Shown: in pieces, positions 32,288-62,683 of the stretch | Layout: every line of letters starts with the position of its first letter | Numbering within the stretch: the stretch's first letter is position 1 | Source: Leclercia adecarboxylata | GTDB lineage: Bacteria > Pseudomonadota > Gammaproteobacteria > Enterobacterales > Enterobacteriaceae | Direction of reading: 5' to 3' | Assembly (NCBI RefSeq): GCF_006874705.1 | Contig: NZ_CP035382.1 | Span: 3,720,001 to 3,784,000 of the forward strand | DNA length: 64,000 bases | Notes under the pieces: generated by a model | What the model was told of the DNA's origin: nothing | Database searches by the model: none | The model's input: only the letters and a program-made list of their open reading frames with translations | Made by a program: the position numbers and the translations under genes

Positions 32288-32395
32288 TTAACCCCAAAGC
32301 ATCGCCGCCCAGCGTAATAACAGCAGGGCAGCATAAAGGGTGATTAACACAATCACCATCTTCCAGTATTTTTTTGAAAAGCGTTTCGTCGGCAT
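32288..32395 (-). CDS. yniD: small membrane protein YniD
   Basis: A 35-residue protein: basic start (MPTKRFSKKYWK), one hydrophobic helix, and end LLLLRWAAMLWG. It matches E. coli YniD (35 residues, MPTKRF...RWAAMIWG) as I recall it, and lies in the same region near thrS. AAGGA stands seven bases before the ATG. Probably a single-pass inner-membrane protein; function unknown. Confidence 0.93.
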   Translation of the reverse strand: MPTKRFSKKYWKMVIVLITLYAALLLLRWAAMLWG

Positions 32396-61703: not shown

Positions 61704-61803
61704 ATGCTCCTTCAAGAGCTAAGCCATGATGAGTGCCGGAGATAAGCGCCGGATGGAGCAAGAAACCCTTAAGACTATTCCAGTAGTCTTAAGGGTTTTC
61801 TTT
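61704..61803 (+). ncRNA. small RNA candidate between menI and sufA (RydB position)
   Basis: A promoter-like pair, CCGACA (61675-61680) and TATTCT (61697-61702) at 16 bases, precedes a closed structure: TGCTCC (61705-61710) pairs with GGAGCA (61755-61760) and encloses a CCGG/CCGG arm. It is followed at once by a very strong terminator, AACCCTTAAGACTA (61764-61777) with TAGTCTTAAGGGTT (61784-61797), then TTTTCTTTTTT. There is no open frame. In E. coli the small RNA RydB lies between ydiH and sufA, so this is probably its counterpart, but I cannot confirm the sequence from memory. Confidence 0.7.
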
Positions 61804-61837: not shown

Positions 61838-61933
61838 TCAATAATCGTCTCTAAGATCCTGCATGGCCGACAGAATGACCAGGCCGGTAATGACCACGGC
61901 AAGGATGGCGGTTATCAACAGTGCAGTAAGCAT
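61838..61933 (-). CDS. 31-residue membrane peptide, unannotated type
   Basis: An ATG at 61933 with an ideal AGGAGG five to ten bases upstream opens a 31-residue frame: MLTALLITAILAVVITGLVILS (broken here as MLTALLITAI, LAVVITGLVILS), then AMQDLRDDY and TGA. It predicts one membrane helix and a short acidic tail, probably facing the periplasm or cytoplasm depending on insertion. I do not recognise it among the small E. coli proteins I know. It runs opposite to the nearby small-RNA candidate, whose hairpin could also stop this transcript. Confidence 0.75.
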   Translation of the reverse strand: MLTALLITAILAVVITGLVILSAMQDLRDDY

Positions 61934-62314
61934 ATCCCCTCCTGATGCTGGCCCCTTTACATCAAGGATAGCGTACCCACAGCCTGGCTATAGCCCACCC
62001 TGGGGCTCTTTCAGAATACGCTTACAGGTAAGATCAGCCGCATCGGCACACTTCCTATCCCAAAAATAGGCATTTTCTATACATATTTTGTATTTATCCC
62101 GTTCAGCCGCGAATTAATGGGAAATCCCTCCTCCGATCAACATGTTAAGTTAATGTGATCATCCCTGTTAACCTCCATAGCAGGGTCTATGCTTAATGAA
62201 AGTAGCCAAAAAGGGCGGTTAAGCCGAATGCCCCTGCAACTGAGGGGTTGAAGTGATAATCATTATCACTAACATGGTGTTATGCCCTGGGGGCGCAATA
62301 CAAGAGGTGGATTT
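61934..62314. promoter_or_regulatory. suf operon control region
   Basis: A 381-base stretch between the 31-residue peptide gene and sufA. It holds the Fur box and, by analogy with E. coli, should also contain OxyR, IHF and apo-IscR sites, which I cannot place with confidence. It is AT-rich around 62060-62160. Confidence 0.55.
62249..62269. promoter_or_regulatory. Fur box of the suf operon
   Basis: GTGATAAT-C-ATTATCAC (62253-62269) is a perfect inverted repeat. The 19-mer from 62249 matches the Fur consensus at 15 positions. It lies 45 bases before sufA, near the expected promoter. Confidence 0.9.
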
Positions 62315-62683
62315 ATGCAACAGCATTCAGAAACATTTGATCCGACGGAATTTGCGTGGCGTGGATTGTCGCTTACACCTGCCGCAGCGGCGCATATACG
62401 CGAGCTGGTAAGCAAGCAGGCGGGCATGCTGGGCGTGCGGTTAGGCGTTAAGACTACCGGCTGCGCCGGCTTTGGTTATGTGCTAGATACCGTCAGCGAA
62501 CCGGCCAAAGACGATCTACTTTTCGAGCAGGATGGCGCCAGACTGTATGTTCCCTTGCAAGCGATGCCGTTTATTGACGGCACGGAAGTGGATTACGTGC
62601 GCGAAGGCTTAAACCAGTTATTCAAATTCAATAACCCGAAAGCCCAGAACGAATGCGGCTGCGGCGAAAGTTTTGGGGTATAG
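62315..62683 (+). CDS. sufA: Fe-S cluster carrier SufA
   Basis: A-type Fe-S carrier of the stress-responsive SUF system, 122 residues as in E. coli. The three ligand Cys are in [10 protein letters not shown] (about 50) and [10 protein letters not shown] at the end (114 and 116). I chose the ATG at 62315 behind AGAGGTGG; the in-frame ATG at 62282 adds a non-conserved extension. First gene of sufABCDSE. Confidence 0.98.

Follow-up and report, generated by a model that had tools for sequence, protein, structure and literature searches.

What kind of gene, if any, is a frame of 31 codons lying between the rydB small RNA gene and sufA in Leclercia adecarboxylata, and does its place beside suf say anything about what it does? 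The frame was found on the minus strand of the window, that is, the whole 64,000-nt stretch of DNA that was analyzed (Table 1). The analysis below deals with the frame and the selection acting on it, the family to which its product belongs, the surroundings of the other copies, and the elements upstream of the start codon.

Table 1. Features of the window at and around the 31-codon frame
Feature	Positions	Strand	Basis or remark
RydB small RNA (neighbor, outside the peptide gene)	61706..61766	+	Rfam RF00118, 76.7 bits against a gathering score of 50
Hairpin common to the rydB terminator; the peptide mRNA may end here	61765..61796	-	
CDS of the 31-residue membrane peptide	61838..61933	-	translation; selection; predicted helix
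Shine-Dalgarno sequence AGGAGG	61938..61943	-	4 bases before ATG
Putative -10 element TATCCT with C at -13 and G at -14, sigma-S-like	61965..61970	-	consensus match
RcsAB-box-like site TAAGCGTATTCTGA	62011..62024	-	10/14 bases, all 5 key bases
Fur-box-like GATAATCATTATC in the sufA promoter (neighbor)	62255..62267		read in sequence
sufA (divergent neighbor)	62315..62683	+	

The 31-Codon Frame and Its Predicted Product

The frame starts with ATG and translates to MLTALLITAILAVVITGLVILSAMQDLRDDY. The first-pass annotation had described it as a membrane peptide with a perfect AGGAGG and one predicted helix, and both features stood up to analysis. Among the 284 ATG-initiated frames of 25–45 residues in the window, this frame is the only one preceded by AGGAGG. 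It is also the most hydrophobic of them, with a best 19-residue Kyte-Doolittle mean of 2.76 (three of the 284 exceeded 2.0). AlphaFold2, run with 14 aligned sequences, predicted a single helix over residues 2–30 (mean pLDDT 95), and the charges leave the membrane topology of the peptide ambiguous. A conserved ORF of no more than 50 codons with a Shine-Dalgarno sequence and a signature of selection places the peptide in the class of small single-pass membrane proteins, the one helix being a prediction from hydropathy and AlphaFold2. Two more small hydrophobic ATG frames were seen in the window, starting at 32395 (minus strand, 35 residues) and 32597 (minus strand, 30 residues).

The synonymous-substitution test that had been proposed for the frame was run, and the frame passed it. 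Among six Leclercia sequences, 24 columns vary, distributed as 5/5/14 over codon positions 1/2/3, and dS was 0.37 against a dN of 0.055 (Jukes-Cantor). In a simulation of random substitution that treats the sequences as independent, and thus overstates significance where changes are common to sequences, 24.4 amino-acid changes (sd 2.7) were expected for these six sequences; 10 were observed, a count as low being reached in none of 5000 runs. For ten prophage sequences, 69 changes were observed against 100 simulated, and again no run was as low. Three sequences of the sister clade, taken alone, gave 5 changes against 6.2 simulated, which was not significant (P 0.28). No indel or internal stop was found in any of the 21 sequences compared, all of which keep 31 codons; this set was drawn up without L075 (33 residues, with two extra codons) and without the more distant members. 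Judging by the substitution pattern, purifying selection is acting on the peptide frame, and the 31-residue peptide looks like the product of a real conserved gene of a kind easily skipped by gene callers.

A Sparse Family with a Conserved C-Terminal Tail

The members of the family have 30–34 residues, one hydrophobic stretch and a C-terminal S-x-x-x-D-x-x-x-D-Y. Residues S22, D26, D30 and Y31 (window numbering) are invariant across 25 aligned members; among members found later, alanine replaces the serine in L058 and L112, and L031 has one residue beyond the tyrosine. An alignment-based search at the level of the bacterial family gave matches with E ≤ 0.001 in 13 of 392 genomes (the window's own genome counted), which represent 8 of 154 genera and carry the gene at scattered loci. 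In the order-level draw of genomes, which overlaps the family-level draw, 4 of 394 genomes matched. The match in G312 (E 3e-4) is a putative one.

The peptide had been noted as belonging to no recognized family, and the database searches bear this out. The window peptide had nothing above the cut-off in Pfam, seven members had no score above the cut-off in NCBIfam, and five members had no convincing match in PADLOC, where the best E-value (0.059) was obtained by one member. The PHROGs gave weak matches only, the best (E 0.0015) being to a family of unknown function and another, at E 0.47, to a Sie-like one. When the peptide was compared with plasmids and phages by tblastn, nothing was found, a weak negative, as peptides of this kind may be hidden by the low-complexity filter. 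The DNA of one prophage copy matched no phage record and two plasmid records, over query bases 55–160 and 95–148, outside the peptide gene, which starts near query base 224; the one of these two records that was inspected is from Leclercia. The DNA of the window unit had no match among plasmids, and no paper on the peptide family was among the matches listed from the open-licence literature. A paper on Gifsy phage resistance was set aside, as it deals with a different protein (PMC12724215). No catalog entry was found, and the family appears to be undescribed, sparse and mobile.

Copies in Prophages and at Other Chromosomal Places

A strict DNA pattern retrieved 10 loci from IMG/VR and 6 from GTDB representatives. 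A second pattern, looser at most positions, returned the identical 10 IMG/VR loci, and two further patterns returned one each. Nine of the IMG/VR peptides have 31 residues and are 65–81% identical to the window peptide, and L075 has 33 residues. At nine of these ten loci a gene scoring as tail fiber or spike runs opposite to the peptide gene. It is the nearest long ORF at seven loci, where it ends within ∼300 bases, and it is separated from the peptide by one small ORF in L066 and L070. In L067, two transposase-like ORFs (identified by eye) take the place of the tail gene. Tail-scoring adjoining genes were also found in L028 (genome G011), L029 (Rahnella rivi), L109, L111 and L117, and the gene adjoining L115 scored only against phage families of unknown function; altogether, the adjoining gene scores as tail fiber or spike in 14 of the 15 cases tested. 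A UmuD-like gene lies upstream in both of the loci tested for it (L068 and L109), and at L117 the order is tail spike, peptide, cassette gene, integrase. Upstream of the peptide, beyond the LexA-like box described below, a UmuD-like or related cassette gene was seen in L066–L070, L074, L075, L109 and L117, in most of them by eye.

Several copies lie elsewhere. In E. coli, at least 2 of 5426 genomes carry a copy (PK5 and EC19) in a search restricted to close DNA; the PK5 copy lies near a phage head-binding-domain gene, with no annotated feature on its strand there. Other chromosomal copies are located near genes such as fliE, sodC, zinT, ruvB together with a ZnuB-like gene, and one for a TetR regulator. 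The copy found on the fliE side in G378 recurs, with its neighboring ORFs, in L118 on a contig called viral by IMG/VR, and G378 itself holds two diverged peptide copies (L043 and L110) ∼300 bases apart near fliE. Zinc-related genes were seen within a few genes of unrelated chromosomal copies, namely zinT (L026 and L107), a ZnuB-like gene (L114) and sodC (L030). No Zur-like site stood out in an uncontrolled comparison, with 12–14 of 23 bases matching a Zur consensus in the 11 copies scored, none of them a Silvania copy. In being accessory, patchily distributed and on the strand opposite to the adjoining structural gene, members of the family resemble morons; the window copy itself lies outside any prophage.

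The Interval Between rydB and suf

A search of the genus, which was a loose first look and may miss some copies, matched 11 of 61 genomes at E ≤ 1e-4, with 12 copies. The copy lies on the ydiI/rydB side of suf in nine genomes, and 52 have no copy there; the copies of G037 and G045 lie elsewhere, and G011 has, besides its suf-side copy, another next to a tail-fiber gene. Three Leclercia records have suf-side peptides identical to ones already named: one matches G055, one G011 and the window, and one G032. In a comparison of SufA over 60 genomes (without G447), the suf-side carriers proved to be the eight genomes with the closest SufA (93–100%) and G055, whose SufA match contains a stop. None of the 50 other genomes with a full SufA match (78–88%) has a suf-side copy, and G016 had no full SufA match. 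This distribution would fit a single gain in a common ancestor.

In the window, 381 bases separate the start codon of the peptide from that of sufA, and GATAATCATTATC before sufA is a putative Fur box. The peptide remains next to rydB in G036 and G053, with 8–10 kb of other genes before sufA; in G051 sufA is close. In G020 (L005), ydiI is followed by the peptide with no rydB between them. These arrangements argue that the peptide unit is independent of both neighbors. The 8–10 kb before sufA in G036 and G053 (L035 and L036) include a pair of related ORFs of regulator-like type and one resembling a fimbrial subunit (by eye). G033 has no peptide, and ∼50 bases separate its rydB terminator from the conserved suf control region, against ∼250 in the window; this near-empty site, known from G033 only, whose assembly is incomplete (79%), could reflect loss. 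Longer unrelated DNA occupies the rydB-suf interval of G028 and G045, and 17 other fetched stretches of this interval were searched for pieces only.

The first-pass annotation had also placed the frame opposite a small-RNA candidate. The opposite strand does carry a small RNA, identified as RydB by Rfam, but the two genes are convergent, with the RydB terminator hairpin between them. Antisense pairing with RydB was rejected, since there is no overlap.

Elements Upstream of the Frame and the Transcript End

The peptide frame is preceded by CATCAGGAGGGGAT. Of the 32 upstream regions, the 22 from closer copies were compared, the other ten being more distant. The leader type AGGCCAGCATCAGGAG is common to prophage and chromosomal copies, and all 22 have G at positions -9 and -6. 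Further upstream, GCTATNCTT lies 35–38 bases before ATG in all 11 chromosomal copies of the genus. The putative -10 element agrees with the sigma-S consensus at 8 of 11 positions, a score equalled by 24 of 500 random 45-base stretches of the window; as random stretches can reach it, conservation is what counts. The features -13C, -8C and -6T reported for sigma-S promoters (PMC4447067) are all matched by GCTATNCTT.

A second site resembles the RcsAB box, whose consensus is TaAGaatatTCcta (PMC4325325). All nine suf-side copies have a like site, TAAGNGNNTTC[CT]GA, at -89 to -91 with the five key bases, and it matches at 10–11 of 14 bases in eight of them and at 9 of 14 in L003; elsewhere, two Silvania-type copies score 8/14 and prophage copies 7–9/14. 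The score of the window site is equalled or bettered at 12 of ∼128,000 window positions, and the genome contains a single instance of TAAGNNTATTCYGA, a pattern modeled on that site. An RcsAB box is placed 59 bases before the transcription start of hmsC (PMC4325325), and the window site would be centered at about -60 from the start that the -10 element implies. Each taken singly, the -10-like and Rcs-like sites are near chance expectation. Elsewhere the upstream DNA differs between the two clades, and this divergence speaks for a function.

Upstream regions were also scored against a LexA consensus. A LexA-like box (15–19 of 20) lies 106–206 bases before ATG in 13 of the 17 copies in phage-like surroundings, divergent copies counted, and is absent from L029, L073, L082 and L111. 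Copies outside such surroundings score at most 13, and the maximum among 300 random 400-base stretches of the window was 14. LexA control of the window copy was not supported, its best site having 13 of 20 bases and no CTG-N10-CAG core and being equalled by 13 of the 300 random stretches. The E. coli locus L083 has a LexA-like box and a UmuD-like cassette without the peptide, so the box may serve only the neighboring gene.

By a rough criterion, a hairpin with a T-run follows soon after the stop codon in 9 of 21 copies, and in several of them it is the rydB hairpin. L003 has a clear, separate terminator-like hairpin immediately after the stop; in most prophage copies such a hairpin is poor or missing.

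Proposed Explanation and Alternatives

The frame, the selection on it, the family, its scattered places, its neighbors and the conserved upstream elements were all established by computation. The reading that we consider probable is that the frame is a genuine gene and belongs to a family, so far undescribed, that moves horizontally. It would encode a single-pass inner-membrane microprotein with a conserved acidic tail and occur both as a prophage moron and as a chromosomal unit. The peptide would pass once through the inner membrane, and the tail, S-x-x-x-D-x-x-x-D-Y followed directly by the stop, would bind and modulate a host membrane protein. Conservation of the tail beside a variable helix speaks for such binding, and the family's spread over several genera suggests that the partner is widespread among enterics. 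Prophages would carry the gene as a moron, an accessory gene at the end of the tail-fiber gene, and Leclercia and the sister clade would hold it as a small unit of its own (promoter, leader with Shine-Dalgarno sequence, and ORF) between rydB and the suf promoter. The gene may move as a unit of ∼250 bases. From the sigma-S-like and RcsB-like sites, expression would be expected in stationary phase or under envelope stress. A bolder scheme is offered as speculation only: a mobile one-helix family would shuttle between prophage and chromosome with its acidic tail docking on a widespread host membrane target, prophages would use it, near an SOS cassette, to remodel or guard the envelope of the lysogen, and hosts would have rewired their copy to sigma-S and Rcs control.

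Four other explanations were weighed. The peptide might be a phage-exclusion or envelope-protection moron, which would sit in the inner membrane of the lysogen and block DNA entry or damage by other phages, the chromosomal copies being kept for the same purpose. The patchy distribution, the position of prophage copies at the end of a tail gene on the opposite strand, and the closeness of L117 to an integrase agree with such a role; yet the PADLOC search of five members gave no match worth naming, the Sie-like PHROG match is very weak, and exclusion does not require the stress-type promoter elements of the chromosomal copies, so that we regard this explanation as unlikely.

A small TisB-like membrane toxin, which in prophages would be induced by the SOS response through the nearby LexA box and depolarize the membrane, appears more doubtful still. 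The box near 13 of the 17 phage-like copies, scoring above every random stretch, is what such a toxin would have, but it lies ∼50–150 bases upstream of the -10-like element, is missing from four of the 17 and from the scored copies outside phage-like surroundings, and occurs with its UmuD-like cassette in L083 without the peptide. The tail of the peptide is acidic, and Rfam at gathering score returned RydB only, with no cataloged antisense RNA overlapping the window copy; an uncataloged one may exist.

There is very little to recommend the view that the peptide specifically assists or regulates the Suf system, or acts together with RydB, and is kept for its position. Nine genomes keep the place, and G247 has an ORF that looks SufA-like by eye ∼1.1 kb away from its copy. 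The suf and small-RNA neighborhood, which had been put forward as a clue to function, is not supported as one: 52 of 61 genomes have no copy there, sufA is 8–10 kb away in G036 and G053, G020 lacks rydB between ydiI and the peptide, and most other members sit elsewhere. Spacing and mobility disfavor a functional link to suf. A non-coding RNA or DNA element that mimics a frame, for which the conserved leader might speak, is strongly disfavored by the synonymous bias of change, the 21 of 21 intact 31-codon frames and the amino-acid tail kept in distant members.

Comparison with Known Systems

Entero67K lists 67,297 intergenic microprotein clusters of Enterobacteriaceae, and the peptide is like these clusters in being intergenic, hydrophobic, under purifying selection and from Enterobacteriaceae; the main text makes no mention of Leclercia, prophage, tail fiber or LexA (PMC11188072). 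The peptide adds a small membrane protein family, missed by annotation, with a sharp C-terminal signature, through which a common host target could emerge. It offers a concrete case of a gene of ∼30 codons whose copies, some in prophages and others at fixed chromosomal sites, have a leader in common; stress-type control is apparently present at one chromosomal site.

MgrB, AcrZ, MgtS, CydX and KdpF are small single-pass enteric proteins that bind larger membrane proteins. The peptide shares with them a size class of 30–50 residues, a single helix and the ease with which it is missed, and it probably binds a partner as well; it differs from them in having no family match. We know of no MgrB-type protein with the S-x-x-x-D-x-x-x-D-Y tail and the scatter over prophages and chromosomes. 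TisB and DinQ are SOS-induced type I toxins, which the peptide resembles in size, in its hydrophobic helix and in the LexA box near most of the scored prophage copies; unlike them, it has a conserved acidic tail, no overlapping antisense RNA found in Rfam, and chromosomal copies in the genus that lack a LexA box. Accessory morons at the ends of prophage tail genes are a known kind, and like them the gene lies on the strand opposite to the tail gene, is patchily distributed and, in L117, is close to an integrase. Unlike them, it is also a stand-alone chromosomal gene kept across species.
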